Part shown: piece by piece, positions 10,352 to 64,000 of the stretch
Layout of the letters: each line of letters begins with the position of its first letter
Numbering within the stretch: position 1 is the stretch's first letter
Assembly: GCF_027943255.1 (NCBI RefSeq)
Contig: NC_072897.1
Coordinates: forward strand, 18,972,044 to 19,036,043
Length of the DNA: 64,000 bases
Reading direction: 5' to 3'
From: Anastrepha obliqua
Taxonomy: Eukaryota; Arthropoda; Insecta; Diptera; Tephritidae
Program-made: the position numbers and the translations under genes
Notes under the pieces: generated by a model
What the model saw: the letters and a program-made list of their open reading frames with translations, nothing else
The model's database searches: none
What the model was told of the DNA's origin: nothing

Positions 10352-10365
10352 AACGTTTGCGTTAA

Positions 10366-21235: not shown

Positions 21236-21302
21236 CTGTATGAAATGATTAAACTGAATTGTAGTAACTATCTGTAAGAATCTTATGCGTTATGACCTAT
21301 GT

Positions 21303-25923: not shown

Positions 25924-25936
25924 CTGTTGGGCGCCA
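25924..25936 (-). other. Primer-binding site
   Basis: Right inside the 5' LTR the minus strand reads TGGCGCCCAAC (the first T being the last LTR base), the complement of a tRNA-Lys 3' end as described for gypsy. Confidence 0.8.
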
Positions 25937-26797: not shown

Positions 26798-27041
26798 CCA
26801 AAAGTGCAAACCGATGAGTGTGCAACGTTCTCCGCGAACAGTGTGCGTTCACTCAGCCAGCACTTATGGCAGCAGCTTTCCGTCACACTGATCAACAATT
26901 GGTGTAGAGACACTCAAATTGTCGAATTCGCTGAAATCATAGTAACGGGACCGCGATAGGCGCCATCTCACTATTCTCTCGTGGTTTTTACTCATGTTGC
27001 TTCGTTGCTATCTGAACAACGACTAATAGGACGAGTATCTA
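26798..27041. other. Spacer between P elements B and C
   Basis: 244 bp with no recognisable coding or repeat content, beginning with B's target duplication. Confidence 0.5.
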
Positions 27042-27482
27042 CAGAGAACGTTAATTTATAAAGAAGTCTCACGAGCTACGAATAGTGTGAATTGTCAAAA
27101 ATGAAGTGAAACCGCGAAGACTTTTTCATCTCGCTCAACTCGACAGCGGGGGAGTTCTTAACAGAGCTGATTACAGTGAATTATGTACAAGTACATTGGC
27201 TCCGCTCAGTTTTCGGTTTCTGTATGAAATCAAACTGACGAATGCCGACGGCATTTGGCAAAGAATTTCCTTGTGCATTTCTATGTTCCCTTGAGAAACG
27301 TAATTTTATTCACTTTATATTTTCAAACAAATACAATTATGAAATTATGCGCCAACATTCATCACTTTTGGTTTGTTGATTTAATCTAAAAAGAAGAATA
27401 TAAACAAAATACAGTATAAAACGTCCTCTCATTTCGTTGTGTTGGTTTTAGTAAATTTAAAACTTCATAACTTCAAGGTCTA

Positions 27483-27991
27483 TGAATAAGTTCGTGCGGT
27501 TTTTTTTCGAAATTTGAATTTCGGATCATTCCCATGACTTTTAAACGTTTGGAAATGGTTGATTGATCAACTCCCAAAGTTTTTGCAACCTCTTCTTGCG
27601 TTTGAGCCGGATCTTGATCGAGCAATTCCTCCAATTCGGTATCCATGAACTTTGGCGGCGCGGCCAAAATCACCACTTTTAAAGCGTGCAAACCACTTCT
27701 GGCACGTTCGCTCAGCTAGAGCATGCTCACCATAAACTTCCACCAAGATACGATGACTTTCGGCTGCTTTTTTCTTCATATTAAAGAATTCCCCGCACAA
27801 ACACATTATTTGGCACGAAATTCGACATTTTCAAGTGTGGTAAAAATATTGTTGTTTACGCTTCAAATAAAAAACTTATACTGACGTTTGTGCCTTACGA
27901 CAGTAGCTCTCCAATGAATGTTTGGAAATGTGGATCGATGGAATAATAATCAAGTTACGCCATCTGTTGTAAAACCGCACGAACTTATCCA
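27483..27991 (-). mobile_element. mariner deletion derivative next to the array
   Basis: Ends TGAATAAGTTCGTGCGGTTT and AAAACCGCACGAACTTATCCA are inverted repeats, flanked by TA (27481-27482; 27992-27993). It is 509 bp long. The minus-strand transposase starts at ATG 27828 (MSNFVPNNVFVRG), then with frame changes reads NMKKKAAESHRILVEVYGEH, AERTCQKWFARFKSGDF and LEELLDQDPAQTQEEVAKTL up to KRLKVMGMI. The whole catalytic domain is deleted. The mariner type differs from that in the array monomers. Confidence 0.85.
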
Positions 27992-27996
27992 TAGAC

Positions 27997-28084
27997 CAAA
28001 TTTGATGAAAATCTTTACTAAATTATCGAGTAAAATTATTTTTAGACAAGAATTCAAAGAGCATATTGGTATATTGATGAATAT
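27997..28084. repeat. P-element-derived part of the first monomer
   Basis: Aligns to the reverse complement of 14371-14451 in element A, including the exact run ATTGGTATATTGATGAATAT (28065-28084; 14371-14390 reversed) plus TTTACTAA and TTTTAGACAA. The similarity stops after GATGAATAT, so the mariner or other DNA begins somewhere after 28084. The first unit has one difference from the rest (TAT for CAT near 28182). Confidence 0.75.
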
Positions 28085-28274
28085 TCTGCTCAAATATGAA
28101 CGATTCTTTATCAATAAAACGGTCCGCGTATGGCATATGGCAAAAATAAATTTTTTGTTGGATGGTAGGACTGTTATAAGCGTATATTGCAAATTTCAGC
28201 GTGATATGTCATATAGTTTGTTTTCTGTGCTACTATAAACAAGTTAAGCTCGAGTGTGTTTTTCGAATTTAGCG

Positions 28275-28985
28275 ATGGAAATTCAAGTTGAACAAAGAAT
28301 TTGTTTGAAATTTTGTTATTCCAACAAAATTTCGGCGTCAGACGCCTTAAAAATGTTGCAGACAACCTATGGGGACTCTGCTCTATCGCGTGCACGTGTT
28401 TTCCAGTGGTACAAATCGTTCAAAGAGGGCCGTACATCGGTTGAAAACTTGCCTCATGAACGTCGTCCAGCAACATCAGTAAACGACAAAAACATCGGAA
28501 AAGTAAAGGAAATTGTGCTTCAAAATCGCCGTGTGACCGAAAGAGAGATAGCTAGTGAGCTGAGCATATCAAATGGATCCGTTCATACTATTATTCATGA
28601 TGTCTTGGGCATGAGACGAGTGTCCGCGCGTCTTGTTCCAAAATTGTTGAATTTTCTTCAAAAAGAACAACGCAAAACTGTCGCTAAGGAAATGCTCGCC
28701 ATGACTGATACGGACATCCGGCACATCATAACTGGTGACGAGACAAATTTGATGAAAATCTTTACTAAATTATCGAGTAAAATTATTTTTAGACAAGAAT
28801 TCAAAGAGCATATTGGTATATTGATGAATATTCTGCTCAAATATGAACGATTCTTTATCAATAAAACGGTCCGCGTATGGCATATGGCAAAAATAAATTT
28901 TTTGTTGGATGGTAGGACTGTTATAAGCGTACATTGCAAATTTCAGCGTGATATGTCATATAGTTTGTTTTCTGTGCTACTATAA
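28275..28985 (+). CDS. Chimeric ORF of monomer 1: mariner DNA-binding region plus unrelated tail
   Basis: 236 codons from ATG 28275 (an upstream in-frame GTG is not a likely start). Residues 1 to about 157 are a mariner transposase N terminus: MEIQVEQRICLKFCYSNKIS, helix-turn-helix region with ARVFQWYKSFKEGRTSVENL, second HTH region with REIASELSISNGSVHTII, the LVPKLLNFLQKEQR linker, and IITGDET with the first catalytic Asp. The rest of the catalytic domain is missing. The roughly 79-residue tail (NLMKIFTKLSSKIIF... to SYSLFSVLL) is translation of the next monomer's P-derived and mariner 5' non-coding DNA and resembles no family I know. A protein would probably bind DNA but not transpose; expression is unproven. 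Confidence 0.7.
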   Translation: MEIQVEQRICLKFCYSNKISASDALKMLQTTYGDSALSRARVFQWYKSFKEGRTSVENLPHERRPATSVNDKNIGKVKEIVLQNRRVTEREIASELSISNGSVHTIIHDVLGMRRVSARLVPKLLNFLQKEQRKTVAKEMLAMTDTDIRHIITGDETNLMKIFTKLSSKIIFRQEFKEHIGILMNILLKYERFFINKTVRVWHMAKINFLLDGRTVISVHCKFQRDMSYSLFSVLL

Positions 28986-29021
28986 ACAAGTTAAGCTCGA
29001 GTGTGTTTTTCGAATTTAGCG

Positions 29022-30479
29022 ATGGAAATTCAAGTTGAACAAAGAATTTGTTTGAAATTTTGTTATTCCAACAAAATTTCGGCGTCAGACGCCTTAAAAA
29101 TGTTGCAGACAACCTATGGGGACTCTGCTCTATCGCGTGCACGTGTTTTCCAGTGGTACAAATCGTTCAAAGAGGGCCGTACATCGGTTGAAAACTTGCC
29201 TCATGAACGTCGTCCAGCAACATCAGTAAACGACAAAAACATCGGAAAAGTAAAGGAAATTGTGCTTCAAAATCGCCGTGTGACCGAAAGAGAGATAGCT
29301 AGTGAGCTGAGCATATCAAATGGATCCGTTCATACTATTATTCATGATGTCTTGGGCATGAGACGAGTGTCCGCGCGTCTTGTTCCAAAATTGTTGAATT
29401 TTCTTCAAAAAGAACAACGCAAAACTGTCGCTAAGGAAATGCTCGCCATGACTGATACGGACATCCGGCACATCATAACTGGTGACGAGACAAATTTGAT
29501 GAAAATCTTTACTAAATTATCGAGTAAAATTATTTTTAGACAAGAATTCAAAGAGCATATTGGTATATTGATGAATATTCTGCTCAAATATGAACGATTC
29601 TTTATCAATAAAACGGTCCGCGTATGGCATATGGCAAAAATAAATTTTTTGTTGGATGGTAGGACTGTTATAAGCGTACATTGCAAATTTCAGCGTGATA
29701 TGTCATATAGTTTGTTTTCTGTGCTACTATAAACAAGTTAAGCTCGAGTGTGTTTTTCGAATTTAGCGATGGAAATTCAAGTTGAACAAAGAATTTGTTT
29801 GAAATTTTGTTATTCCAACAAAATTTCGGCGTCAGACGCCTTAAAAATGTTGCAGACAACCTATGGGGACTCTGCTCTATCGCGTGCACGTGTTTTCCAG
29901 TGGTACAAATCGTTCAAAGAGGGCCGTACATCGGTTGAAAACTTGCCTCATGAACGTCGTCCAGCAACATCAGTAAACGACAAAAACATCGGAAAAGTAA
30001 AGGAAATTGTGCTTCAAAATCGCCGTGTGACCGAAAGAGAGATAGCTAGTGAGCTGAGCATATCAAATGGATCCGTTCATACTATTATTCATGATGTCTT
30101 GGGCATGAGACGAGTGTCCGCGCGTCTTGTTCCAAAATTGTTGAATTTTCTTCAAAAAGAACAACGCAAAACTGTCGCTAAGGAAATGCTCGCCATGACT
30201 GATACGGACATCCGGCACATCATAACTGGTGACGAGACAAATTTGATGAAAATCTTTACTAAATTATCGAGTAAAATTATTTTTAGACAAGAATTCAAAG
30301 AGCATATTGGTATATTGATGAATATTCTGCTCAAATATGAACGATTCTTTATCAATAAAACGGTCCGCGTATGGCATATGGCAAAAATAAATTTTTTGTT
30401 GGATGGTAGGACTGTTATAAGCGTACATTGCAAATTTCAGCGTGATATGTCATATAGTTTGTTTTCTGTGCTACTATAA
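29022..30479 (+). CDS. Monomers 2 and 3, intact ORFs
   Basis: ATG at 29022 and 29769, each 236 codons, same product as monomer 1 with His at the tail position where the partial first unit has Tyr. Confidence 0.65.
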
Positions 30480-30515
30480 ACAAGTTAAGCTCGAGTGTGT
30501 TTTTCGAATTTAGCG

Positions 30516-31226
30516 ATGGAAATTCAAGTTGAACAAAGAATTTGTTTGAAATTTTGTTATTCCAACAAAATTTCGGCGTAAGACGCCTTAAAAATGTTGC
30601 AGACAACCTATGGGGACTCTGCTCTATCGCGTGCACGTGTTTTCCAGTGGTACAAATCGTTCAAAGAGGGCCGTACATCGGTTGAAAACTTGCCTCATGA
30701 ACGTCGTCCAGCAACATCAGTAAACGACAAAAACATCGGAAAAGTAAAGGAAATTGTGCTTCAAAATCGCCGTGTGACAGAAAGAGAGATAGCTAGTGAG
30801 CTGAGCATATCAAATGGATCCGTTCATACTATTATTCATGATGTCTTGGGCATGAGACGAGTGTCCGCGCGTCTTGTTCCAAAATTGTTGAATTTTCTTC
30901 AAAAAGAACAACGCAAAACTGTCGCTAAGGAAATGCTCGCCATGACTGATACGGACATCCGGCACATCATAACTGGTGACGAGACAAATTTGATGAAAAT
31001 CTTTACTAAATTATCGAGTAAAATTATTTTTAGACAAGAATTCAAAGAGCATATTGGTATATTGATGAATATTCTGCTCAAATATGAACGATTCTTTATC
31101 AATAAAACGGTCCGCGTATGGCATATGGCAAAAATAAATTTTTTGTTGGATGGTAGGACTGTTATAAGCGTACATTGCAAATTTCAGCGTGATATGCCAT
31201 ATAGTTTGTTTTCTGTGCTACTATAA
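30516..31226 (+). pseudogene. Monomer 4, early stop
   Basis: TCA is changed to TAA at 30579-30581 (codon 22), inside the GGCGTCAGACGCC palindrome. An ATG at 30594 could restart with loss of the first 26 residues. Confidence 0.85.
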
Positions 31227-31262
31227 ACAAGTTAAGCTCGAGTGTGTTTTTCGAATTTAGCG

Positions 31263-34200
31263 ATGGAAATTCAAGTTGAACAAAGAATTTGTTTGAAATT
31301 TTGTTATTCCAACAAAATTTCGGCGTCAGACGCCTTAAAAATGTTGCAGACAACCTATGGGGACTCTGCTCTATCGCGTGCACGTGTTTTCCAGTGGTAC
31401 AAATCGTTCAAAGAGGGCCGTACATCGGTTGAAAACTTGCCTCATGAACGTCGTCCAGCAACATCAGTAAACGACAAAAACATCGGAAAAGTAAAGGAAA
31501 TTGTGCTTCAAAATCGCCGTGTGACCGAAAGAGAGATAGCTAGTGAGCTGAGCATATCAAATGGATCCGTTCATACTATTATTCATGATGTCTTGGGCAT
31601 GAGACGAGTGTCCGCGCGTCTTGTTCCAAAATTGTTGAATTTTCTTCAAAAAGAACAACGCAAAACTGTCGCTAAGGAAATGCTCGCCATGACTGATACG
31701 GACATCCGGCACATCATAACTGGTGACGAGACAAATTTGATGAAAATCTTTACTAAATTATCGAGTAAAATTATTTTTAGACAAGAATTCAAAGAGCATA
31801 TTGGTATATTGATGAATATTCTGCTCAAATATGAACGATTCTTTATCAATAAAACGGTCCGCGTATGGCATATGGCAAAAATAAATTTTTTGTTGGATGG
31901 TAGGACTGTTATAAGCGTACATTGCAAATTTCAGCGTGATATGTCATATAGTTTGTTTTCTGTGCTACTATAAACAAGTTAAGCTCGAGTGTGTTTTTCG
32001 AATTTAGCGATGGAAATTCAAGTTGAACAAAGAATTTGTTTGAAATTTTGTTATTCCAACAAAATTTCGGCGTCAGACGCCTTAAAAATGTTGCAGACAA
32101 CCTATGGGGACTCTGCTCTATCGCGTGCACGTGTTTTCCAGTGGTACAAATCGTTCAAAGAGGGCCGTACATCGGTTGAAAACTTGCCTCATGAACGTCG
32201 TCCAGCAACATCAGTAAACGACAAAAACATCGGAAAAGTAAAGGAAATTGTGCTTCAAAATCGCCGTGTGACCGAAAGAGAGATAGCTAGTGAGCTGAGC
32301 ATATCAAATGGATCCGTTCATACTATTATTCATGATGTCTTGGGCATGAGACGAGTGTCCGCGCGTCTTGTTCCAAAATTGTTGAATTTTCTTCAAAAAG
32401 AACAACGCAAAACTGTCGCTAAGGAAATGCTCGCCATGACTGATACGGACATCCGGCACATCATAACTGGTGACGAGACAAATTTGATGAAAATCTTTAC
32501 TAAATTATCGAGTAAAATTATTTTTAGACAAGAATTCAAAGAGCATATTGGTATATTGATGAATATTCTGCTCAAATATGAACGATTCTTTATCAATAAA
32601 ACGGTCCGCGTATGGCATATGGCAAAAATAAATTTTTTGTTGGATGGTAGGACTGTTATAAGCGTACATTGCAAATTTCAGCGTGATATGTCATATAGTT
32701 TGTTTTCTGTGCTACTATAAACAAGTTAAGCTCGAGTGTGTTTTTCGAATTTAGCGATGGAAATTCAAGTTGAACAAAGAATTTGTTTGAAATTTTGTTA
32801 TTCCAACAAAATTTCGGCGTCAGACGCCTTAAAAATGTTGCAGACAACCTATGGTGACTCTGCTCTATCGCGTGCACGTGTTTTCCAGTGGTACAAATCG
32901 TTCAAAGAGGGCCGTACATCGGTTGAAAACTTGCCTCATGAACGTCGTCCAGCAACATCAGTAAACGACAAAAACATCGGAAAAGTAAAGGAAATTGTGC
33001 TTCAAAATCGCCGTGTGACCGAAAGAGAGATAGCTAGTGAGCTGAGCATATCAAATGGATCCGTTCATACTATTATTCATGATGTCTTGGGCATGAGACG
33101 AGTGTCCGCGCGTCTTGTTCCAAAATTGTTGAATTTTCTTCAAAAAGAACAACGCAAAACTGTCGCTAAGGAAATGCTCGCCATGACTGATACGGACATC
33201 CGGCACATCATAACTGGTGACGAGACAAATTTGATGAAAATCTTTACTAAATTATCGAGTAAAATTATTTTTAGACAAGAATTCAAAGAGCATATTGGTA
33301 TATTGATGAATATTCTGCTCAAATATGAACGATTCTTTATCAATAAAACGGTCCGCGTATGGCATATGGCAAAAATAAATTTTTTGTTGGATGGTAGGAC
33401 TGTTATAAGCGTACATTGCAAATTTCAGCGTGATATGTCATATAGTTTGTTTTCTGTGCTACTATAAACAAGTTAAGCTCGAGTGTGTTTTTCGAATTTA
33501 GCGATGGAAATTCAAGTTGAACAAAGAATTTGTTTGAAATTTTGTTATTCCAACAAAATTTCGGCGTCAGACGCCTTAAAAATGTTGCAGACAACCTATG
33601 GGGACTCTGCTCTATCGCGTGCACGTGTTTTCCAGTGGTACAAATCGTTCAAAGAGGGCCGTACATCGGTTGAAAACTTGCCTCATGAACGTCGTCCAGC
33701 AACATCAGTAAACGACAAAAACATCGGAAAAGTAAAGGAAATTGTGCTTCAAAATCGCCGTGTGACCGAAAGAGAGATAGCTAGTGAGCTGAGCATATCA
33801 AATGGATCCGTTCATACTATTATTCATGATGTCTTGGGCATGAGACGAGTGTCCGCGCGTCTTGTTCCAAAATTGTTGAATTTTCTTCAAAAAGAACAAC
33901 GCAAAACTGTCGCTAAGGAAATGCTCGCCATGACTGATACGGACATCCGGCACATCATAACTGGTGACGAGACAAATTTGATGAAAATCTTTACTAAATT
34001 ATCGAGTAAAATTATTTTTAGACAAGAATTCAAAGAGCATATTGGTATATTGATGAATATTCTGCTCAAATATGAACGATTCTTTATCAATAAAACGGTC
34101 CGCGTATGGCATATGGCAAAAATAAATTTTTTGTTGGATGGTAGGACTGTTATAAGCGTACATTGCAAATTTCAGCGTGATATGTCATATAGTTTGTTTT

Positions 34201-35708
34201 CTGTGCTACTATAAACAAGTTAAGCTCGAGTGTGTTTTTCGAATTTAGCGATGGAAATTCAAGTTGAACAAAGAATTTGTTTGAAATTTTGTTATTCCAA
34301 CAAAATTTCGGCGTCAGACGCCTTAAAAATGTTGCAGACAACCTATGGGGACTCTGCTCTATCGCGTGCACGTGTTTTCCAGTGGTACAAATCGTTCAAA
34401 GAGGGCCGTACATCGGTTGAAAACTTGCCTCATGAACGTCGTCCAGCAACATCAGTAAACGACAAAAACATCGAAAAAGTAAAGGAAATTGTGCTTCAAA
34501 ATCGCCGTGTGACCGAAAGAGAGATAGCTAGTGAGCTGAGCATATCAAATGGATCCGTTCATACTATTATTCATGATGTCTTGGGCATGAGACGAGTGTC
34601 CGCGCGTCTTGTTCCAAAATTGTTGAATTTTCTTCAAAAAGAACAACGCAAAACTGTCGCTAAGGAAATGCTCGCCATGACTGATACGGACATCCGGCAC
34701 ATCATAACTGGTGACGAGACAAATTTGATGAAAATCTTTACTAAATTATCGAGTAAAATTATTTTTAGACAAGAATTCAAAGAGCATATTGGTATATTGA
34801 TGAATATTCTGCTCAAATATGAACGATTCTTTATCAATAAAACGGTCCGCGTATGGCATATGGCAAAAATAAATTTTTTGTTGGATGGTAGGACTGTTAT
34901 AAGCGTACATTGCAAATTTCAGCGTGATATGTCATATAGTTTGTTTTCTGTGCTACTATAAACAAGTTAAGCTCGAGTGTGTTTTTCGAATTTAGCGATG
35001 GAAATTCAAGTTGAACAAAGAATTTGTTTGAAATTTTGTTATTCCAACAAAATTTCGGCGTCAGACGCCTTAAAAATGTTGCAGACAACCTATGGGGACT
35101 CTGCTCTATCGCGTGCACGTGTTTTCCAGTGGTACAAATCGTTCAAAGAGGGCCGTACATCGGTTGAAAACTTGCCTCATGAACGTCGTCCAGCAACATC
35201 AGTAAACGACAAAAACATCGGAAAAGTAAAGGAAATTGTGCTTCAAAATCGCCGTGTGACCGAAAGAGAGATAGCTAGTGAGCTGAGCATATCAAATGGA
35301 TCCGTTCATACTATTATTCATGATGTCTTGGACATGAGACGAGTGTCCGCGCGTCTTGTTCCAAAATTGTTGAATTTTCTTCAAAAAGAACAACGCAAAA
35401 CTGTCGCTAAGGAAATGCTCGCCATGACTGATACGGACATCCGGCACATCATAACTGGTGACGAGACAAATTTGATGAAAATCTTTACTAAATTATCGAG
35501 TAAAATTATTTTTAGACAAGAATTCAAAGAGCATATTGGTATATTGATGAATATTCTGCTCAAATATGAACGATTCTTTATCAATAAAACGGTCCGCGTA
35601 TGGCATATGGCAAAAATAAATTTTTTGTTGGATGGTAGGACTGTTATAAGCGTACATTGCAAATTTCAGCGTGATATGTCATATAGTTTGTTTTCTGTGC
35701 TACTATAA
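31263..35708 (+). CDS. Monomers 5-10, intact ORFs
   Basis: ATG at 31263, 32010, 32757, 33504, 34251 and 34998. Monomer 9 has Gly to Glu (NIEKVKE) and monomer 10 Gly to Asp (VLDMRR). All carry the MRRV allele. Confidence 0.65.
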
Positions 35709-35744
35709 ACAAGTTAAGCTCGAGTGTGTTTTTCGAATTTAGCG

Positions 35745-36816
35745 ATGGAAATTCAAGTTGAACAAAGAATTTGTTTGAAATTTTGTTATTCCAACAAAAT
35801 TTCGGCGTCAGACGCCTTAAAAATGTTGCAGACAACCTATGGGGACTCTGCTCTATCGCGTGCACGTGTTTTCCAGTGGTACAAATCGTTCAAAGAGGGC
35901 CGTACATCGGTTGAAAACTTGCCTCATGAACGTCGTCCAGCAACATCAGTAAACGACAAAAACATCGGAAAAGTAAAGGAAATTGTGCTTCAAAATCGCC
36001 GTGTGACCGAAAGAGAGATAGCTAGTGAGCTGAGCATATCAAATGGATCCGTTCATACTATTATTCATGATGTCTTGGGCATGAGACGAGTGTCCGCGCG
36101 TCTTGATCCAAAATTGTTGAAATTGAAGAATTTGTTTGAAATTTTGTTATTCCAACAAAATTTCGGCGTCAGACGCCTTAAAAATGTTGCAGACAACCTA
36201 TGGGGACTCTGCTCTATCGCGTGCACGTGTTTTCCAGTGGTACAAATCGTTCAAAGAGGGCCGTACATCGGTTGAAAACTTGCCTCATGAACGTCGTCCA
36301 GCAACATCAGTAAACGACAAAAACATCGGAAAAGTAAAGGAAATTGTGCTTCAAAATCGCCGTGTGACCGAAAGAGAGATAGCTAGTGAGCTGAGCTTAT
36401 CAAATGGATCCGTTCATACTATTATTCATGATGTCTTGGGCATGAGACGAGTGTCCGCGCGTCTTGTTCCAAAATTGTTGAATTTTCTTCAAAAAGAACA
36501 ACGCAAAACTGTCGCTAAGGAAATGCTCGCCATGGCTGATACGGACATCCGGCACATCATAACTGGTGACGAGACAAATTTGATGAAAATCTTTACTAAA
36601 TTATCGAGTAAAATTATTTTTAGACAAGAATTCAAAGAGCATATTGGTATATTGATGAATATTCTGCTCAAATATGAACGATTCTTTATCAATAAAACGG
36701 TCCGCGTATGGCATATGGCAAAAATAAATTTTTTGTTGGATGGTAGGACTGTTATAAGCGTACATTGCAAATTTCAGCGTGATATGTCATATAGTTTGTT
36801 TTCTGTGCTACTATAA
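35745..36816 (+). pseudogene. Monomer 11 with 361-bp truncated unit
   Basis: After LDPKLLK the sequence jumps from TTGTTGAA back to AAGAATTTG of the mariner 5' region, so the frame ends at 36275. The second, partial unit reads on from about 36136 to 36816. Spacing to the next monomer is 1108 bp (747 + 361). Confidence 0.85.
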
Positions 36817-36852
36817 ACAAGTTAAGCTCGAGTGTGTTTTTCGAATTTAGCG

Positions 36853-37563
36853 ATGGAAATTCAAGTTGAACAAAGAATTTGTTTGAAATTTTGTTATTCC
36901 AACAAAATTTCGGCGTCAGACGCCTTAAAAATGTTGCAGACAACCTATGGGGACTCTGCTCTATCGCGTGCACGTGTTTTCCAGTGGTACAAATCGTTCA
37001 AAGAGGGCCGTACATCGGTTGAAAACTTGCCTCATGAACGTCGTCCAGCAACATCAGTAAACGACAAAAACATCGGAAAAGTAAAGGAAATTGTGCTTCA
37101 AAATCGCCGTGTGACCGAAAGAGAGATAGCTAGTGAGCTGAGCATATCAAATGGATCCGTTCATACTATTATTCATGATGTCTTGGGCATGAGACGAGTG
37201 TCCGCGCGTCTTGTTCCAAAATTGTTGAATTTTCTTCAAAAAGAACAACGCAAAACTGTCGCTAAGGAAATGCTCGCCATGACTGATACGGACATCCGGC
37301 ACATCATAACTGGTGACGAGACAAATTTGATGAAAATCTTTACTAAATTATCGAGTAAAATTATTTTTAGACAAGAATTCAAAGAGCATATTGGTATATT
37401 GATGAATATTCTGCTCAAATATGAACGATTCTTTATCAATAAAACGGTCCGCGTATGGCATATGGCAAAAATAAATTTTTTGTTGGATGGTAGGACTGTT
37501 ATAAGCGTACATTGCAAATTTCAGCGTGATATGTCATATAGTTTGTTTTCTGTGCTACTATAA
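36853..37563 (+). CDS. Monomer 12, intact ORF
   Basis: Last MRRV unit before the MRRM allele first appears in monomer 13. Confidence 0.65.
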   Translation: MEIQVEQRICLKFCYSNKISASDALKMLQTTYGDSALSRARVFQWYKSFKEGRTSVENLPHERRPATSVNDKNIGKVKEIVLQNRRVTEREIASELSISNGSVHTIIHDVLGMRRVSARLVPKLLNFLQKEQRKTVAKEMLAMTDTDIRHIITGDETNLMKIFTKLSSKIIFRQEFKEHIGILMNILLKYERFFINKTVRVWHMAKINFLLDGRTVISVHCKFQRDMSYSLFSVLL

Positions 37564-37599
37564 ACAAGTTAAGCTCGAGTGTGTTTTTCGAATTTAGCG

Positions 37600-38309
37600 A
37601 TGGAAATTCAAGTTGAACAAAGAATTTGTTTGAAATTTTGTTATTCCAACAAAATTTCGGCGTCAGACGCCTTAAAAATGTTGCAGACAACCTATGGGGA
37701 CTCTGCTCTATCGCGTGCACGTGTTTTCCAGTGGTACAAATCGTTCAAAGAGGCCGTACATCGGTTGAAAACTTGCCTCATGAACGTCGTCCAGCAACAT
37801 CAGTAAACGACAAAAACATCGGAAAAGTAAAGGAAATTGTGCTTCAAAATCGCCGTGTGACCGAAAGAGAGATAGCTAGTGAGCTGAGCATATCAAATGG
37901 ATCCGTTCATACTATTATTCATGATGTCTTGGGCATGAGACGAATGTCCGCGCGTCTTGTTCCAAAATTGTTGAATTTTCTTCAAAAAGAACAACGCAAA
38001 ACTGTCGCTAAGGAAATGCTCGCCATGACTGATACGGACATCCGGCACATCATAACTGGTGACGAGACAAATTTGATGAAAATCTTTACTAAATTATCGA
38101 GTAAAATTATTTTTAGACAAGAATTCAAAGAGCATATTGGTATATTGATGAATATTCTGCTCAAATATGAACGATTCTTTATCAATAAAACGGTCCGCGT
38201 ATGGCATATGGCAAAAATAAATTTTTTGTTGGATGGTAGGACTGTTATAAGCGTACATTGCAAATTTCAGCGTGATATGTCATATAGTTTGTTTTCTGTG
38301 CTACTATAA
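37600..38309 (+). pseudogene. Monomer 13, 1-bp deletion
   Basis: AGAGGGCCG is AGAGGCCG near 37751, shifting the frame; spacing to the next unit is 746. First unit with the MRRM allele. Confidence 0.85.
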
Positions 38310-38345
38310 ACAAGTTAAGCTCGAGTGTGTTTTTCGAATTTAGCG

Positions 38346-39417
38346 ATGGAAATTCAAGTTGAACAAAGAATTTGTTTGAAATTTTGTTATTCCAACAAAA
38401 TTTCGGCGTCAGACGCCTTAAAAATGTTGCAGACAACCTATGGGGACTCTGCTCTATCGCGTGCACGTGTTTTCCAGTGGTACAAATCGTTCAAAGAGGG
38501 CCGTACATCGGTTGAAAACTTGCCTCATGAACGTCGTCCAGCAACATCAGTAAACGACAAAAGCATCGGAAAAGTAAAGGAAATTGTGCTTCAAAATCGC
38601 CGTGTGACCAAAAGAGAGATAGCTAGTGAGCTGAGCATATCAAATGGATCCGTTCATACTATTATTCATGATGTCTTGGGCATGAGACGAGTGTCCGCGC
38701 GTCTTGTTCCAAAATTGTTGAAATTGAAGAATTTGTTTGAAATTTTGTTATTCCAACAAAATTTCGGCGTCAGACGCCTTAAAAATGTTGCAGACAACCT
38801 ATGGGGACTCTGCTCTATCGCGTGCACGTGTTTTCCAGTGATACAAATCGTTCAAAGAGGGCCGTACATCGGTTGAAAACTTGCCTCATGAACGTCGTCC
38901 AGCAACATCAGTAAACGACAAAAACATCGGAAAAGTAAAGGAAATTGTGCTTCAAAATCGCCGTGTGACCGAAAGAGAGATAGCTAGTGAGCTGAGCATA
39001 TCAAATAGATCCGTTCATACTATTATTCATGATGTCTTGGGCATGAGACGAGTGTCCGCGCGTCTTGTTCCAAAATTGTTGAATTTTCTTCAAAAAGAAC
39101 AACGGAAAACTGTCGCTAAGGAAATGCTCGCCATGACTGATACGGACATCCGGCACATCATAACTGGTGACGAGACAAATTTGATGAAAATCTTTACTAA
39201 ATTATCGAGTAAAATTATTTTTAGACAAGAATTCAAAGAGCATATTGGTATATTGATGAATATTCTGCTCAAATATGAACGATTCTTTATCAATAAAACG
39301 GTCCGCGTATGGCATATGGCAAAAATAAATTTTTTGTTGGATGGTAGGACTGTTATAAGCGTACATTGCAAATTTCAGCGTGATATGTCATATAGTTTGT
39401 TTTCTGTGCTACTATAA
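38346..39417 (+). pseudogene. Monomer 14 with truncated unit
   Basis: Same 361-bp junction as monomer 11. It also has NDKS and VTKRE changes, and in the partial unit TGG to TGA (38839-38841). These marks are shared with monomer 18. Confidence 0.85.
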
Positions 39418-39453
39418 ACAAGTTAAGCTCGAGTGTGTTTTTCGAATTTAGCG

Positions 39454-41658: not shown

Positions 41659-41694
41659 ACAAGTTAAGCTCGAGTGTGTTTTTCGAATTTAGCG

Positions 41695-42766
41695 ATGGAA
41701 ATTCAAGTTGAACAAAGAATTTGTTTGAAATTTTGTTATTCCAACAAAATTTCGGCGTCAGACGCCTTAAAAATGTTGCAGACAACCTATGGGGACTCTG
41801 CTCTATCGCGTGCACGTGTTTTCCAGTGGTACAAATCGTTCAAAGAGGGCCGTACATCGGTTGAAAACTTGCCTCATGAACGTCGTCCAGCAACATCAGT
41901 AAACGACAAAAGCATCGGAAAAGTAAAGGAAATTGTGCTTCAAAATCGCCGCGTGACCAAAAGAGAGATAGCTAGTGAGCTGAGCATATCAAATGGATCC
42001 GTTCATACTATTATTCATGATGTCTTGGGCATGAGACGAGTGTCCGCGCGTCTTGTTCCAAAATTGTTGAAATTGAAGAATTTGTTTGAAATTTTGTTAT
42101 TCCAACAAAATTTCGGCGTCAGACGCCTTAAAAATGTTGCAGACAACCTATGGGGACTCTGCTCTATCGCGTGCACGTGTTTTCCAGTGATACAAATCGT
42201 TCAAAGAGGGCCGTACATCGGTTGAAAACTTGCCTCATGAACGTCGTCCAGCAACATCAGTAAACGACAAAAACATCGGAAAGGTAAAGGAAATTGTGCT
42301 TCAAAATCGCCGTGTGACCGAAAGAGAGATAGCTAGTGAGCTGAGCATATCAAATGGATCCGTTCATACTATTATTCATGATGTCTTGGGCATGAGACGA
42401 GTGTCCGCGCGTCTTGTTCCAAAATTGTTGAATTTTCTTCAAAAAGAACAACGCAAAACTGTCGCTAAGGAAATGCTCGCCATGACTGATACGGACATCC
42501 GGCACATCATAACTGGTGACGAGACAAATTTGATGAAAATCTTTACTAAATTATCGAGTAAAATTATTTTTAGACAAGAATTCAAAGAGCATATTGGTAT
42601 ATTGATGAATATTCTGCTCAAATATGAACGATTCTTTATCAATAAAACGGTCCGCGTATGGCATATGGCAAAAATAAATTTTTTGTTGGATGGTAGGACT
42701 GTTATAAGCGTACATTGCAAATTTCAGCGTGATATGTCATATAGTTTGTTTTCTGTGCTACTATAA
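41695..42766 (+). pseudogene. Monomer 18 with truncated unit
   Basis: Carries the marks of monomer 14 (NDKS, VTKRE, the 361-bp junction, TGA at 42188-42190). It lies 3,349 bp downstream of it, which equals 4 x 747 + 361. Confidence 0.85.
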
Positions 42767-42802
42767 ACAAGTTAAGCTCGAGTGTGTTTTTCGAATTTAG
42801 CG

Positions 42803-54718: not shown

Positions 54719-54754
54719 ACAAGTTAAGCTCGAGTGTGTTTTTCGAATTTAGCG

Positions 54755-55826
54755 ATGGAAATTCAAGTTGAACAAAGAATTTGTTTGAAATTTTGTTATT
54801 CCAACAAAATTTCGGCGTCAGACGCCTTAAAAATGTTGCAGACAACCTATGGGGACTCTGCTCTATCGCGTGCACGTGTTTTCCAGTGGTACAAATCGTT
54901 CAAAGAGGGCCGTACATCGGTTGAAAACTTGCCTCATGAACGTCGTCCAGCAACATCAGTAAACGACAAAAACATCGGAAAAGTAAAGGAAATTGTGCTT
55001 CAAAATCGCCGTGTGACCGAAAGAGAGATAGCTAGTGAGCTGAGCATATCAAATGGATCCGTTCATACTATTATTCATGATGTCTTGGGCATGAGACGAG
55101 TGTCCGCGCGTCTTGTTCCAAAATTGTTGAAATTGAAGAATTTGTTTGAAATTTTGTTATTCCAACAAAATTTCGGCGTCAGACGCCTTAAAAATGTTGC
55201 AGACAACCTATGGGGACTCTGCTCTATCGCGTGCACGTGTTTTCCAGTGGTACAAATCGTTCAAAGAGGGCCGTACATCGGTTGAAAACTTGCCTCATGA
55301 ACGTCGTCCAGCAACATCAGTAAACGACAAAAACATCGGAAAAGTAAAGGAAATTGTGCTTCAAAATCGCCGTGTGACCGAAAGAGAGATAGCTAGTGAG
55401 CTGAGCATATCAAATGGATCCGTTCATACTATTATTCATGATGTCTTGGGCATGAGACGAGTGTCCGCGCGTCTTGTTCCAAAATTGTTGAATTTTCTTC
55501 AAAAAGAACAACGCAAAACTGTCGCTAAGGAAATGCTCGCCATGACTGATACGGACATCCGGCACATCATAACTGGTGACGAGACAAATTTGATGAAAAT
55601 CTTTACTAAATTATCGAGTAAAATTATTTTTAGACAAGAATTCAAAGAGCATATTGGTATATTGATGAATATTCTGCTCAAATATGAACGATTCTTTATC
55701 AATAAAACGGTCCGCGTATGGCATATGGCAAAAATAAATTTTTTGTTGGATGGTAGGACTGTTATAAGCGTACATTGCAAATTTCAGCGTGATATGTCAT
55801 ATAGTTTGTTTTCTGTGCTACTATAA
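54755..55826 (+). pseudogene. Monomer 35 with truncated unit
   Basis: Fourth instance of the 361-bp junction, without the NDKS/VTKRE marks, so closer to monomer 11 than to 14 and 18. Confidence 0.85.
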
Positions 55827-55862
55827 ACAAGTTAAGCTCGAGTGTGTTTTTCGAATTTAGCG

Positions 55863-58800
55863 ATGGAAATTCAAGTTGAACAAAGAATTTGTTTGAAATT
55901 TTGTTATTCCAACAAAATTTCGGCGTCAGACGCCTTAAAAATGTTGCAGACAACCTATGGGGACTCTGCTCTATCGCGTGCACGTGTTTTCCAGTGGTAC
56001 AAATCGTTCAAAGAGGGCCGTACATCGGTTGAAAACTTGCCTCATGAACGTCGTCCAGCAACATCAGTAAACGACAAAAACATCGGAAAAGTAAAGGAAA
56101 TTGTGCTTCAAAATCGCCGTGTGACCGAAAGAGAGATAGCTAGTGAGCTGAGCATATCAAATGGATCCGTTCATACTATTATTCATGATGTCTTGGGCAT
56201 GAGACGAGTGTCCGCGCGTCTTGTTCCAAAATTGTTGAATTTTCTTCAAAAAGAACAACGCAAAACTGTCGCTAAGGAAATGCTCGCCATGACTGATACG
56301 GACATCCGGCACATCATAACTGGTGACGAGACAAATTTGATGAAAATCTTTACTAAATTATCGAGTAAAATAATTTTTAGACAAGAATTCAAAGAGCATA
56401 TTGGTATATTGATGAATATTCTGCTCAAATATGAACGATTCTTTATCAATAAAACGGTCCGCGTATGGCATATGGCAAAAATAAATTTTTTGTTGGATGG
56501 TAGGACTGTTATAAGCGTACATTGCAAATTTCAGCGTGATATGTCATATAGTTTGTTTTCTGTGCTACTATAAACAAGTTAAGCTCGAGTGTGTTTTTCG
56601 AATTTAGCGATGGAAATTCAAGTTGAACAAAGAATTTGTTTGAAATTTTGTTATTCCAACAAAATTTCGGCGTCAGACGCCTTAAAAATGTTGCAGACAA
56701 CCTATGGGGACTCTGCTCTATCGCGTGCACGTGTTTTCCAGTGGTACAAATCGTTCAAAGAGGGCCGTACATCGGTTGAAAACTTGCCTCATGAACGTCG
56801 TCCAGCAACATCAGTAAACGACAAAAACATCGGAAAAGTAAAGGAAATTGTGCTTCAAAATCGCCGTGTGACCGAAAGAGAGATAGCTAGTGAGCTGAGC
56901 ATATCAAATGGATCCGTTCATACTATTATTCATGATGTCTTGGGCATGAGACGAGTGTCCGCGCGTCTTGTTCCAAAATTGTTGAATTTTCTTCAAAAAG
57001 AACAACGCAAAACTGTCGCTAAGGAAATGCTCGCCATGACTGATACGGACATCCGGCACATCATAACTGGTGACGAGACAAATTTGATGAAAATCTTTAC
57101 TAAATTATCGAGTAAAATTATTTTTAGACAAGAATTCAAAGAGCATATTGGTATATTGATGAATATTCTGCTCAAATATGAACGATTCTTTATCAATAAA
57201 ACGGTCCGCGTATGGCATATGGCAAAAATAAATTTTTTGTTGGATGGTAGGACTGTTATAAGCGTACATTGCAAATTTCAGCGTGATATGTCATATAGTT
57301 TGTTTTCTGTGCTACTATAAACAAGTTAAGCTCGAGTGTGTTTTTCGAATTTAGCGATGGAAATTCAAGTTGAACAAAGAATTTGTTTGAAATTTTGTTA
57401 TTCCAACAAAATTTCGGCGTCAGACGCCTTAAAAATGTTGCAGACAACCTATGGGGACTCTGCTCTATCGCGTGCACGTGTTTTCCAGTGGTACAAATCG
57501 TTCAAAGAGGGCCGTACATCGGTTGAAAACTTGCCTCATGAACGTCGTCCAGCAACATCAGTAAACGACAAAAACATCGGAAAAGTAAAGGAAATTGTGC
57601 TTCAAAATCGCCGTGTGACCGAAAGAGAGATAGCTAGTGAGCTGAGCATATCAAATGGATCCGTTCATACTATTATTCATGATGTCTTGGGCATGAGACG
57701 AATGTCCGCGCGTCTTGTTCCAAAATTGTTGAATTTTCTTCAAAAAGAACAACGCAAAACTGTCGCTAAGGAAATGCTCGCCATGACTGATACGGACATC
57801 CGGCACATCATAACTGGTGACGAGACAAATTTGATGAAAATCTTTACTAAATTATCGAGTAAAATTATTTTTAGACAAGAATTCAAAGAGCATATTGGTA
57901 TATTGATGAATATTCTGCTCAAATATGAACGATTCTTTATCAATAAAACGGTCCGCGTATGGCATATGGCAAAAATAAATTTTTTGTTGGATGGTAGGAC
58001 TGTTATAAGCGTACATTGCAAATTTCAGCGTGATATGTCATATAGTTTGTTTTCTGTGCTACTATAAACAAGTTAAGCTCGAGTGTGTTTTTCGAATTTA
58101 GCGATGGAAATTCAAGTTGAACAAAGAATTTGTTTGAAATTTTGTTATTCCAACAAAATTTCGGCGTCAGACGCCTTAAAAATGTTGCAGACAACCTATG
58201 GGGACTCTGCTCTATCGCGTGCACGTGTTTTCCAGTGGTACAAATCGTTCAAAGAGGGCCGTACATCGGTTGAAAACTTGCCTCATGAACGTCGTCCAGC
58301 AACATCAGTAAACGACAAAAGCATCGGAAAAGTAAAGGAAATTGTGCTTCAAAATCGCCGTGTGACCGAAAGAGAGATAGCTAGTGAGCTGAGCATATCA
58401 AATGGATCCGTTCATACTATTATTCATGATGTCTTGGGCATGAGACGAGTGTCCGCGCGTCTTGTTCCAAAATTGTTGAATTTTCTTCAAAAAGAACAAC
58501 GCAAAACTGTCGCTAAGGAAATGCTCGCCATGACTGATACGGACATCCGGCACATCATAACTGGTGACGAGACAAATTTGATGAAAATCTTTACTAAATT
58601 ATCGAGTAAAATTATTTTTAGACAAGAATTCAAAGAGCATATTGGTATATTGATGAATATTCTGCTCAAATATGAACGATTCTTTATCAATAAAACGGTC
58701 CGCGTATGGCATATGGCAAAAATAAATTTTTTGTTGGATGGTAGGACTGTTATAAGCGTACATTGCAAATTTCAGCGTGATATGTCATATAGTTTGTTTT

Positions 58801-61800
58801 CTGTGCTACTATAAACAAGTTAAGCTCGAGTGTGTTTTTCGAATTTAGCGATGGAAATTCAAGTTGAACAAAGAATTTGTTTGAAATTTTGTTATTCCAA
58901 CAAAATTTCGGCGTCAGACGCCTTAAAAATGTTGCAGACAACCTATGGGGACTCTGCTCTATCGCGTGCACGTGTTTTCCAGTGGTACAAATCGTTCAAA
59001 GAGGGCCGTACATCGGTTGAAAACTTGCCTCATGAACGTCGTCCAGCAACATCAGTAAACGACAAAAACATCGGAAAAGTAAAGGAAATTGTGCTTCAAA
59101 ATCGCCGTGTGACCGAAAGAGAGATAGCTAGTGAGCTGAGCATATCAAATGGATCCGTTCATACTATTATTCATGATGTCTTGGGCATGAGACGAATGTC
59201 CGCGCGTCTTGTTCCAAAATTGTTGAATTTTCTTCAAAAAGAACAACGCAAAACTGTCGCTAAGGAAATGCTCGCCATGACTGATACGGACATCCGGCAC
59301 ATCATAACTGGTGACGAGACAAATTTGATGAAAATCTTTACTAAATTATCGAGTAAAATTATTTTTAGACAAGAATTCAAAGAGCATATTGGTATATTGA
59401 TGAATATTCTGCTCAAATATGAACGATTCTTTATCAATAAAACGGTCCGCGTATGGCATATGGCAAAAATAAATTTTTTGTTGGATGGTAGGACTGTTAT
59501 AAGCGTACATTGCAAATTTCAGCGTGATATGTCATATAGTTTGTTTTCTGTGCTACTATAAACAAGTTAAGCTCGAGTGTGTTTTTCGAATTTAGCGATG
59601 GAAATTCAAGTTGAACAAAGAATTTGTTTGAAATTTTGTTATTCCAACAAAATTTCGGCGTCAGACGCCTTAAAAATGTTGCAGACAACCTATGGGGACT
59701 CTGCTCTATCGCGTGCACGTGTTTTCCAGTGGTACAAATCGTTCAAAGAGGGCCGTACATCGGTTGAAAACTTGCCTCATGAACGTCGTCCAGTAACATC
59801 AGTAAACGACAAAAACATCGGAAAAGTAAAGGAAATTGTGCTTCAAAATCGCCGTGTGACCGAAAGAGAGATAGCTAGTGAGCTGAGCATATCAAATGGA
59901 TCCGTTCATACTATTATTCATGATGTCTTGGGCATGAGACGAGTGTCCGCGCGTCTTGTTCCAAAATTGTTGAATTTTCTTCAAAAAGAACAACGCAAAA
60001 CTGTCGCTAAGGAAATGCTCGCCATGACTGATACGGACATCCGGCACATCATAACTGGTGACGAGACAAATTTGATGAAAATCTTTACTAAATTATCGAG
60101 TAAAATTATTTTTAGACAAGAATTCAAAGAGCATATTGGTATATTGATGAATATTCTGCTCAAATATGAACGATTCTTTATCAATAAAACGGTCCGCGTA
60201 TGGCATATGGCAAAAATAAACTTTTTGTTGGATGGTAGGACTGTTATAAGCGTACATTGCAAATTTCAGCGTGATATGTCATATAGTTTGTTTTCTGTGC
60301 TACTATAAACAAGTTAAGCTCGAGTGTGTTTTTCGAATTTAGCGATGGAACTTCAAGTTGAACAAAGAATTTGTTTGAAATTTTGTTATTCCAACAAAAT
60401 TTCGGCGTCAGACGCCTTAAAAATGTTGCAGACAACCTATGGGGACTCTGCTCTATCGCGTGCACGTGTTTTCCAGTGGTACAAATCGTTCAAAGAGGGC
60501 CGTACATCGGTTGAAAACTTGCCTCATGAACGTCGTCCAGCAACATCAGTAAACGACAAAAACATCGGAAAAGTAAAGGAAATTGTGCTTCAAAATCGCC
60601 GTGTGACCGAAAGAGAGATAGCTAGTGAGCTGAGCATATCAAATGGATCCGTTCATACTATTATTCATGATGTCTTGGGCATGAGACGAATGTCCGCGCG
60701 TCTTGTTCCAAAATTGTTGAATTTTCTTCAAAAAGAACAACGCAAAACTGTCGCTAAGGAAATGCTCGCCATGACTGATACGGACATCCGGCACATCATA
60801 ACTGGTGACGAGACAAATTTGATGAAAATCTTTACTAAATTATCGAGTAAAATTATTTTTAGACAAGAATTCAAAGAGCATATTGGTATATTGATGAATA
60901 TTCTGCTCAAATATGAACGATTCTTTATCAATAAAACGGTCCGCGTATGGCATATGGCAAAAATAAATTTTTTGTTGGATGGTAGGACTGTTATAAGCGT
61001 ACATTGCAAATTTCAGCGTGATATGTCATATAGTTTGTTTTCTGTGCTACTATAAACAAGTTAAGCTCGAGTGTGTTTTTCGAATTTAGCGATGGAAATT
61101 CAAGTTGAACAAAGAATTTGTTTGAAATTTTGTTATTCCAACAAAATTTCGGCGTCAGACGCCTTAAAAATGTTGCAGACAACCTATGGGGACTCTGCTC
61201 TATCGCGTGCACGTGTTTTCCAGTGGTACAAATCGTTCAAAGAGGGCCGTACATCGGTTGAAAACTTGCCTCATGAACGTCGTCCAGCAACATCAGTAAA
61301 CGACAAAAACATCGGAAAAGTAAAGGAAATTGTGCTTCAAAATCGCCGTGTGACCGAAAGAGAGATAGCTAGTGAGCTGAGCATATCAAATGGATCCGTT
61401 CATACTATTATTCATGATGTCTTGGGCATGAGACGAGTGTCCGCGCGTCTTGTTCCAAAATTGTTGAATTTTCTTCAAAAAGAACAACGCAAAACTGTCG
61501 CTAAGGAAATGCTCGCCATGACTGATACGGACATCCGGCACATCATAACTGGTGACGAGACAAATTTGATGAAAATCTTTACTAAATTATCGAGTAAAAT
61601 TATTTTTAGACAAGAATTCAAAGAGCATATTGGTATATTGATGAATATTCTGCTCAAATATGAACGATTCTTTATCAATAAAACGGTCCGCGTATGGCAT
61701 ATGGCAAAAATAAATTTTTTGTTGGATGGTAGGACTGTTATAAGCGTACATTGCAAATTTCAGCGTGATATGTCATATAGTTTGTTTTCTGTGCTACTAT

Positions 61801-63296
61801 AAACAAGTTAAGCTCGAGTGTGTTTTTCGAATTTAGCGATGGAAATTCAAGTTGAACAAAGAATTTGTTTGAAATTTTGTTATTCCAACAAAATTTCGGC
61901 GTCAGACGCCTTAAAAATGTTGCAGACAACCTATGGGGACTCTGCTCTATCGCGTGCACGTGTTTTCCAGTGGTACAAATCGTTCAAAGAGGGCCGTACA
62001 TCGGTTGAAAACTTGCCTCATGAACGTCGTCCAGCAACATCAGTAAACGACAAAAACATCGGAAAAGTAAAGGAAATTGTGCTTCAAAATCGCCGTGTGA
62101 CCGAAAGAGAGATAGCTAGTGAGCTGAGCATATCAAATGGATCCGTTCATACTATTATTCATGATGTCTTGGGCATGAGACGAATGTTCGCGCGTCTTGT
62201 TCCAAAATTGTTGAATTTTCTTCAAAAAGAACAACGCAAAACTGTCGCTAAGGAAATGCTCGCCATGACTGATACGGACATCCGGCACATCATAACTGGT
62301 GACGAGACAAATTTGATGAAAATCTTTACTAAATTATCGAGTAAAATTATTTTTAGACAAGAATTCAAAGAGCATATTGGTATATTGATGAATATTCTGC
62401 TCAAATATGAACGATTCTTTATCAATAAAACGGTCCGCGTATGGCATATGGCAAAAATAAATTTTTTGTTGGATGGTAGGACTGTTATAAGCGTACATTG
62501 CAAATTTCAGCGTGATATGTCATACAGTTTGTTTTCTGTGCTACTATAAACAAGTTAAGCTCGAGTGTGTTTTTCGAATTTAGCGATGGAAATTCAAGTT
62601 GAACAAAGAATTTGTTTGAAATTTTGTTATTCCAACAAAATTTCGGCGTCAGACGCCTTAAAAATGTTGCAGACAACCTATGGGGACTCTGCTCTATCGC
62701 GTGCACGTGTTTTCCAGTGGTACAAATCGTTCAAAGAGGGCCGTACATCGGTTGAAAACTTGCCTCATGAACGTCGTCCAGCAACATCAGTAAACGACAA
62801 AAACATCGGAAAAGTAAAGGAAATTGTGCTTCAAAATCGCCGTGTGACCGAAAGAGAGATAGCTAGTGAGCTGAGCATATCAAATGGATCCGTTCATACT
62901 ATTATTCATGATGTCTTGGGCATGAGACGAGTGTCCGCGCGTCTTGTTCCAAAATTGTTGAATTTTCTTCAAAAAGAACAACGCAAAACTGTCGCTAAGG
63001 AAATGCTCGCCATGACTGATACGGACATCCGGCACATCATAACTGGTGACGAGACAAATTTGATGAAAATCTTTACTAAATTATCGAGTAAAATTATTTT
63101 TAGACAAGAATTCAAAGAGCATATTGGTATATTGATGAATATTCTGCTCAAATATGAACGATTCTTTATCAATAAAACGGTCCGCGTATGGCATATGGCA
63201 AAAATAAATTTTTTGTTGGATGGTAGGACTGTTATAAGCGTACATTGCAAATTTCAGCGTGATATGTCATATAGTTTGTTTTCTGTGCTACTATAA
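55863..63296 (+). CDS. Monomers 36-45, intact ORFs
   Basis: ATG every 747 bp from 55863 to 62586. MRRV and MRRM alternate strictly from monomer 37 to 45. Single changes: NDKS (39), Ala to Val (41), Ile to Leu at residue 3 (42), Ser to Phe (44). Confidence 0.65.
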
Positions 63297-63332
63297 ACAA
63301 GTTAAGCTCGAGTGTGTTTTTCGAATTTAGCG

Positions 63333-64000
63333 ATGGAAATTCAAGTTGAACAAAGAATTTGTTTGAAATTTTGTTATTCCAACAAAATTTCGGCGTCAGA
63401 CGCCTTAAAAATGTTGCAGACAACCTATGGGGACTCTGCTCTATCGCGTGCACGTGTTTTCCAGTGGTACAAATCGTTCAAAGAGGGCCGTACATCGGTT
63501 GAAAACTTGCCTCATGAACGTCGTCCAGCAACATCAGTAAACGACAAAAGCATCGGAAAAGTAAAGGAAATTGTGCTTCAAAATCGCCGTGTGACCGAAA
63601 GAGAGATAGCTAGTGAGCTGAGCATATCAAATGGATCCGTTCATACTATTATTCATGATGTCTTGGGCATGAGACGAGTGTCCGCGCGTCTTGTTCCAAA
63701 ATTGTTGAATTTTCTTCAAAAAGAACAACGCAAAACTGTCGCTAAGGAAATGCTCGCCATGACTGATACGGACATCCGGCACATCATAACTGGTGACGAG
63801 ACAAATTTGATGAAAATCTTTACTAAATTATCGAGTAAAATTATTTTTAGACAAGAATTCAAAGAGCATATTGGTATATTGATGAATATTCTGCTCAAAT
63901 ATGAACGATTCTTTATCAATAAAACGGTCCGCGTATGGCATATGGCAAAAATAAATTTTTTGTTGGATGGTAGGACTGTTATAAGCGTACATTGCAAATT
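63333..64000 (+). CDS. Monomer 46, cut by window end
   Basis: Open to the end of the window, with the NDKS and MRRV alleles. The array continues beyond. Confidence 0.65.
   Translation, partial: MEIQVEQRICLKFCYSNKISASDALKMLQTTYGDSALSRARVFQWYKSFKEGRTSVENLPHERRPATSVNDKSIGKVKEIVLQNRRVTEREIASELSISNGSVHTIIHDVLGMRRVSARLVPKLLNFLQKEQRKTVAKEMLAMTDTDIRHIITGDETNLMKIFTKLSSKIIFRQEFKEHIGILMNILLKYERFFINKTVRVWHMAKINFLLDGRTVISVHCK

Follow-up and report, generated by a model that had tools for sequence, protein, structure and literature searches.

A young single-locus tandem array in Anastrepha obliqua composed of the 5' half of a mariner element and a short stretch of local flank

The closest described system to the locus analyzed in this study is the h39 cluster of Bari1 in Drosophila melanogaster, in which approximately 80 head-to-tail copies of a Tc1/mariner element occupy a single locus and are thought to be recent and species-specific (PMC8834629). 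To the knowledge of the authors of that 2022 review, nothing comparable to h39 had been described. Other tandem arrays derived from transposable elements (TEs) include SGM, ENSAT1, miDNA4, and a 16-copy hobo tandem (PMC9659126, PMC12628747), as well as Tetris. As sources of such arrays, repetitive noncoding parts of TEs, namely, terminal inverted repeats (TIRs), long terminal repeats (LTRs), and untranslated regions (UTRs), are stressed, although some arrays are derived from open reading frames (ORFs) (PMC9659126). It has also been proposed that a tandem repeat can gain its initial copies through transposase breaks (Kapitonov and Jurka [1999], quoted in PMC6947457). Here, we describe a 73,876-bp tandem array of mariner-derived units in the tephritid fly Anastrepha obliqua. 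Its left part lies in the window, which is the whole stretch of 64,000 nucleotides that was analyzed (RefSeq assembly GCF_027943255.1, contig NC_072897.1, positions 18,972,044 to 19,036,043, forward strand).

Like Bari1 h39, the array consists of head-to-tail Tc1/mariner copies at a single locus. It very probably arose by local tandem duplication of a segment made up of the 5' half of a mariner and its flank, which belongs to a dispersed repeat termed X here, followed by amplification through block exchange, with the ORF carried by each unit as a by-product. The copies of Bari1 are whole elements minus their first two nucleotides, whereas the units of this array hold a mariner 5' half and 86 bp of flank. 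Bari1 has a second, small cluster of six copies, whereas a single locus was found here, with the source element kept at its end. The h39 cluster is heterochromatic and located beside a centromere (PMC8834629); the present array lies approximately 19.0 Mb into a contig of 80.85 Mb. In comparison with TE-derived satellites generally, it combines a coding half, a 5' UTR, and host flank at one locus. A mariner residing within a satellite is listed in a table in PMC9659126, whereas in the present array the repeat stems from the mariner itself. For Bactrocera tryoni, abundant mariners and main satellites of 154 to 182 bp are reported, and the available part of that genome paper mentions no such array (PMC4367827). 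The original prediction, made from the letters of the window, knew of no described family with this structure. This holds for the exact make-up, which was not found in the accessible text of open-licence PMC papers, but not for TE-derived arrays as a class, Bari1 included. The array belongs with these known arrays, h39 being the closest, but its birth record is unusually clear.

The array extends from window position 27998 to the window-equivalent position 101873 (C6:19000041-19073916). The first head-to-tail unit boundary is found at 27997/27998, and the units run past position 64000. The following features describe its extent and its units:

27998 to 64000, plus strand: tandem array within the window, continuing for 37.9 kb past the window end.
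28254 to 29000, plus strand: representative 747-bp unit, identical to the consensus.
35724 to 36831, 38325 to 39432, 41674 to 42781, and 54734 to 55841, plus strand: 1108-bp variant units with a 361-bp internal duplication, one junction and T399A in all.

Counted in the ATG-side phase, the window contains 45 complete units, of which 40 are 747 bp, four are 1108 bp, and one is 746 bp long, and a 46th that is cut at 689 bp. Across the whole array, 97 anchors delimit 96 complete units, of which 90 are 747 bp, four are 1108 bp, one is 746 bp, and one is 721 bp long. Besides their common junction and T399A, the four 1108-bp units differ from one another. As the longest period it considers is 500, Tandem Repeats Finder recovered no more of the array than a poor period of 361 bp, which is the size of the duplication within each of the four long units. 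At least 36 kb of head-to-tail 747-bp units had been predicted. The array is real and longer than that, and the unit length applies to 40 of the 45 complete window units but not to the four of 1108 bp and the one of 746 bp.

The chimeric junction, GGTGACGAGAC followed by AAATTTGATGAAAATC, gave 96 exact matches in the 836-Mb assembly, all of them in the array and none elsewhere. A dispersed satellite or a mobile composite was rejected on this basis. Of the properties by which a satellite may be recognized, the array shows a long homogeneous run of head-to-tail units (96 complete ones); high genomic abundance or presence at several loci was not observed. Since the exact junction is confined to one locus, we regard the array as a tandem array of a single locus and not as a family of satellites. 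The suggestion of a young satellite is thus right about a large, young, and homogeneous tandem array and goes too far in the term satellite.

Each 747-bp unit corresponds to one contiguous piece of the locus, comprising 86 bp of X and the first 661 bp of a mariner that is inserted in X. Two parts of the representative unit are delimited as follows:

28745 to 28830, plus strand: X-derived part (unit positions 492 to 577), homologous to 14452-14371 on the minus strand.
28831 to 29000, plus strand: mariner 5' TIR and 5' UTR (unit positions 578 to 747), placed by the starts of dispersed genome matches.

The mariner part, made up of the TIR, the 5' UTR, and codons 1 to 157, represents 661 of the approximately 1305 bp of the element, and non-mariner DNA accounts for 86 of the 747 bp. 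In a genome search with the unit, 38 of 1616 candidates were scored, which is a lower bound on the number of dispersed copies. These 38 copies match unit positions 1 to 491 and the adjoining positions 578 to 747. Sixteen of the dispersed matches start exactly at position 578, and the majority of the remainder start no more than about 14 bases away; the start of the mariner was therefore placed at this position. The junction (GAGAC/AAATTT) joins GACGAGAC, at mariner codon 157, where the uninterrupted terminal copy reads GACGAGACTTGGG, to AAATTTGATG.

At its right edge, the array stops at unit position 491 and is followed by the rest of the same mariner and then by X. The last 499 bp of the array and 644 bp beyond it align in one piece with dispersed copies, for example, at 97.6% identity with L003. 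The resulting terminal mariner of approximately 1305 bp contains a 348-amino-acid frame with D155, D250, and D285, and the 34 residues between the last two correspond to a DD34D motif. Its TIRs begin with TTCTGCTCAAAT and read TTCTGCTCAAATATGAACG at the 5' end and TTCTGCTCAAATGTGAACG at the 3' end, the latter matching the former. Locally, TA directly precedes the 5' TIR, and another TA is located one G past the 3' TIR; in three of five dispersed copies that were printed (L002, L003, and L006, not L004 and L007), TA plus C is found ahead of the TIR. The source copy therefore displays the TIRs, the TA target duplication, and the DD34D transposase by which a mariner is recognized. The array units do not: they are truncated at codon 157, ahead of catalytic aspartates two and three, and lack the catalytic domain and the 3' TIR. 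Compared with Mos1-type mariner transposases (DD34D), the helix-turn-helix (HTH) part is present in the units and the whole frame in the terminal copy; the units have no catalytic domain past the first aspartate. Over 491 sites, a single difference separates the terminal copy from the unit consensus. Among the 38 scored, dispersed copies are 89 to 98% identical, the best at approximately 98%. With the terminal copy nearer to the consensus than the best scored dispersed copies, we conclude that the array came from the terminal copy. The X sequence after the mariner 3' TIR matches 14357-14140 at 90%.

The left edge of the array involves the following features:

27040 to 27458, plus strand: left flank, a copy of dispersed repeat X (blastn within the window).
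14140 to 14800, minus strand: X paralogue without the MITE, mariner, or array ("empty site"), matching both array flanks.
27459 to 27997, minus strand: insertion in X resembling a mariner-type miniature inverted-repeat transposable element (MITE), 539 bp, internally deleted (inverted repeat, translation, and tblastn).
27998 to 28253, plus strand: left end of the array, consisting of the X continuation and the first copy's mariner TIR and 5' UTR, with 1 substitution in 256 positions relative to the consensus.

Within the window, 27220-27458 matches 14698-14447 at 81%, 27040-27118 matches 14780-14702 at 94%, and 14780-14371 covers the left flank together with the X part of the unit. When the left flank up to 27458 was joined to the unit's X part, a single collinear alignment to the X paralogue was obtained (274 of 335 positions identical). 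As X is collinear through the insertion point and broken only by the MITE, the unit is most simply read as local DNA. The TIRs of the MITE (27477-27503 and 27971-27997) are 27 bp long and 96% identical in this copy. It holds a minus-strand fragment from the N terminus of the transposase of another mariner subfamily, to which several mariner proteins match by tblastn, and it is flanked by AAATTT on both sides (27453-27458 and 27998-28003). The element is asymmetric, with 18 extra bases between AAATTT and the left TIR, and has no TA target duplication. Further copies of it were not found in 264 kb around the array. The array's first base, which is that of the unit's chimeric junction, directly follows the right end of the MITE, so that the left breakpoint lies at most 1 base from the end of the right TIR. 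With up to 2 mismatches allowed, the MITE-array boundary matched once in the assembly, and therefore no second haplotype of the left edge was found in it. The coincidence of breakpoint and MITE end fits the idea of a transposase break, even though it was spotted post hoc.

X is perhaps part of a repeat of several kilobases. The right flank of the array (window-equivalent 102519-104000) matches 13281-13048 at 91% and 9987-8959 at 97%, and in the window copy (8959-14357), this repeat would be broken by a piggyBac-bearing stretch.

The relationship between units records how the array grew. Of the 89 747-bp units that were compared, 25 are identical to the consensus, and the mean distance from it is 0.176%, increasing from 0.072% in units 0 to 15 to approximately 0.22% in units 48 to 95. 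Units 38 to 43 are the same as units 45 to 50, with five of the six being nonconsensus, and units 72 to 77 are the same as units 84 to 89. Repeated blocks of variants were detected at offsets of 6, 7, 12, 16, and 28 units, and the 1108-bp form occurs at units 10, 13, 17, and 34. This is the pattern expected from repeated exchange of blocks, presumably by unequal crossing-over.

The reading frame in each unit is represented by the following feature:

28275 to 28985, plus strand: 236-codon chimeric ORF with stop, in the representative unit.

Residues 1 to 157 correspond to the N terminus of a mariner transposase and are identical at 148 of 157 positions to the full-length, 354-amino-acid transposase P0001. 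Pfam HTH_48 matches this part, and the nearest solved structure by sequence is Mos1 (E = 1.1e-9), which agrees with the prediction that each unit carries the DNA-binding half of a mariner transposase gene. Neither P0001 nor the 5' UTR pattern had a match in the genome-contig and viral-contig collections. Residues from about 158 to 186 are encoded by the X part and those from about 187 to 236 by the next copy's mariner TIR and 5' UTR; in other words, the ORF of each copy ends in codons supplied by the TIR and 5' UTR of the copy that follows. What had been taken for a fusion to unrelated sequence is thus mostly TIR and 5' UTR of the same mariner, with only unit positions 492 to 577 stemming from local X. 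The frame is kept in 39 of the 45 complete window units, the same count as predicted, and in 89 of 96 across the array. The six window units that lack it comprise one with a nonsense change, one with a 1-bp deletion, and the four 1108-bp units.

A structure model of the protein was confident for two HTH parts, with pLDDT below 50 over residues 147 to 236 (mean, 63.3; pTM, 0.33). Compared by itself with 236 proteins, without the large protein database, the 79-residue tail had no match better than E = 2.5. Some whole-query alignments (to P0001, P0064, P0074, P0101, and P0116) extend into the tail at low identity. These were read as extensions of the N-terminal match, because the same proteins are absent when the tail is compared alone. 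A domesticated tail domain was rejected, given the best E value of 2.5 among the 236 proteins and the low model confidence. Two AATAAA hexamers are located within the ORF ahead of its stop, at unit positions 607 and 639. At approximately six of the nine residues that differ from P0001, the unit appears to be the derived one, which may mean that the founder mariner had begun to drift.

Across the whole array, 53 distinct substitutions were counted, 37 of which are nonsynonymous (including 2 stops), 14 synonymous, and 2 noncoding. The nonsynonymous fraction of 0.725 compares with 0.743 expected from random placement with the same spectrum (P[≤] = 0.40), and the 2 stops compare with 2.6 expected; for the window alone, the 34 distinct changes include 2 stops versus 1.56 expected. 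These counts exclude the 746-bp and 721-bp units as well as the initial ten bases of unit 66, and each 1108-bp unit entered them as two pieces divided at the junction. The deletion flanked by units 65 and 66 was divided unevenly by the anchor, and unit 66 did not enter the mean distance. The substitutions in the ORF look neutral, with no sign of selection, in an array whose youth gives such a test little power. That most units have an intact frame reflects the youth of the array and the near identity of its units. As the substitutions fit neutrality, the conserved ORF that had been announced is not supported in the selective sense, and the ORF probably has no selected function. A coding satellite under selection was rejected as the principal explanation, as nonsynonymous and stop changes occur at about chance frequency. 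Gene conversion from dispersed mariners was likewise rejected: 1 of 51 variants matches the alleles of eight dispersed copies, versus 3.7 expected.

We propose the following order of events. A DD34D mariner would have inserted in a copy of X, leaving 86 bp of X between itself and the MITE. A tandem duplication would then have copied the 747 bp that extend from the MITE's right end up to mariner codon 157, and a break at the MITE end may have begun it. The new junction would by chance have extended the truncated frame to 236 codons, and the exchange of multiunit blocks would have led to about 97 copies, with the source mariner remaining whole at the right end. This proposal draws on both boundaries, the collinearity with the X paralogue, the single-locus junction, the block duplications, and the neutral substitutions. 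The run of the frame through X and the next 5' UTR to a stop is, as part of the same highly probable account, a chance product of the junction. Several observations weigh against this account or stand apart from it. The mariner coding part of the unit (positions 22 to 492) carries 43 of the 53 distinct substitutions, where the expected fraction is 0.64 (P = 0.009), and conversion from the eight dispersed mariners compared does not explain this density, as only the one variant matches. Variant 367A alternates among window units 16 to 44, with 1 pair at lag 1 and 7 at lag 2 (permutation P values for its spacing, 0.007 and 0.05). The tail is open for 79 codons, the chance of which is 0.0016 under a first-order random model of the region, and a selected ORF therefore keeps some probability. 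Finally, the array itself is not among the scored candidates of the genome search, so the uniqueness of the junction rests on the exact-pattern match.

Alternative explanations differ mainly in how the duplication began and in whether the array serves a purpose. The MITE may have arrived after the array, at its left edge, and played no part in the duplication. The AAATTT on both sides of it resembles a target duplication, and the unit's X part also starts with AAATTT, but this requires that, by coincidence, the insertion point and the duplication breakpoint fall at almost exactly the same base, and we consider this order of events rather unlikely. It is unlikely, too, that a circle carrying the founder segment was released by excision, replicated in the rolling-circle mode, and reintegrated at the locus of origin through homology, a model that reviews give for Bari1 (PMC9659126, PMC8834629). 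Uniform head-to-tail units of very low divergence would be explained in this way; however, the block repeats and the positions of the 1108-bp units require later exchange anyway, and both outer flanks are those of the original locus. Circle-based amplification at the earliest stage and block exchange are compatible and not exclusive.

A function of the array, be it through a DNA-binding-only mariner protein or through anti-mariner small RNAs, would be consistent with the frame kept in most units, the confidently predicted, Mos1-like HTH parts, and a tail open beyond the simple chance model. In addition, each unit retains the mariner 5' UTR and one of three catalytic aspartates, and the genome has further mariner copies, at the identities given above for the 38 scored. 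Set against this are substitutions, stops included, that fit neutrality, a tail with neither a homologue among the 236 proteins nor a confident fold, and the two AATAAA hexamers before the stop, which together make such a use improbable on present sequence data. As a candidate for the KP-type class of truncated-transposase repressors, which bind the TIRs and lower transposition, the protein would be arguable here for its predicted DNA-binding fold alone. The fuller scenario, in which a mariner-type transposase cutting at the MITE end would have led to duplication and on to a nascent repressor or small-RNA locus of about 97 units against resident mariners, seems very improbable. In principle, an assembler could have produced the identical blocks of units by error. 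That the copy number is an assembly artefact is nevertheless extremely improbable, as both array ends lie within one contig of 80.85 Mb, no N bases occur in the 200 kb fetched rightward of the window, 53 distinct substitutions and several length variants tell the units apart, and both edges resolve to one logical locus. Local duplication followed by block exchange is thus the explanation that we retain.

The window contains several other elements. A piggyBac-like transposase is located at 10714-12389, the C-terminal part of which appears to go on in another frame from approximately 11961; for its ORF at 10714-12060, Bactrocera dorsalis (84%) and Zeugodacus cucurbitae (80%) provide the nearest named relatives, both of them tephritids, in line with a tephritid host. 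Positions 19298-26491 hold a Gypsy-like retroelement whose gag-, pol-, and env-like ORFs lie on the minus strand, and the repeat pair 25936-26491 and 19298-19789 (86% identity) resembles its LTRs. A tandem repeat with periods of 129, 247, and 384 bp occupies 7550-8517, and two near-identical open stretches of 83 codons in opposite orientation (16134-16385 and 17242-17493) form an inverted repeat.

By the time TE-derived tandem arrays are encountered, their origin is usually no longer clear. At the locus described here, the source transposon, both flanks, an empty paralogue, and the history of block exchange can all be read, and models of satellite birth, whether by transposase break, slippage, a circle, or unequal exchange, can therefore be tested at one locus. 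The array also illustrates that an intact, repeated ORF need not mean a conserved gene, since the array that carries it may simply be young.

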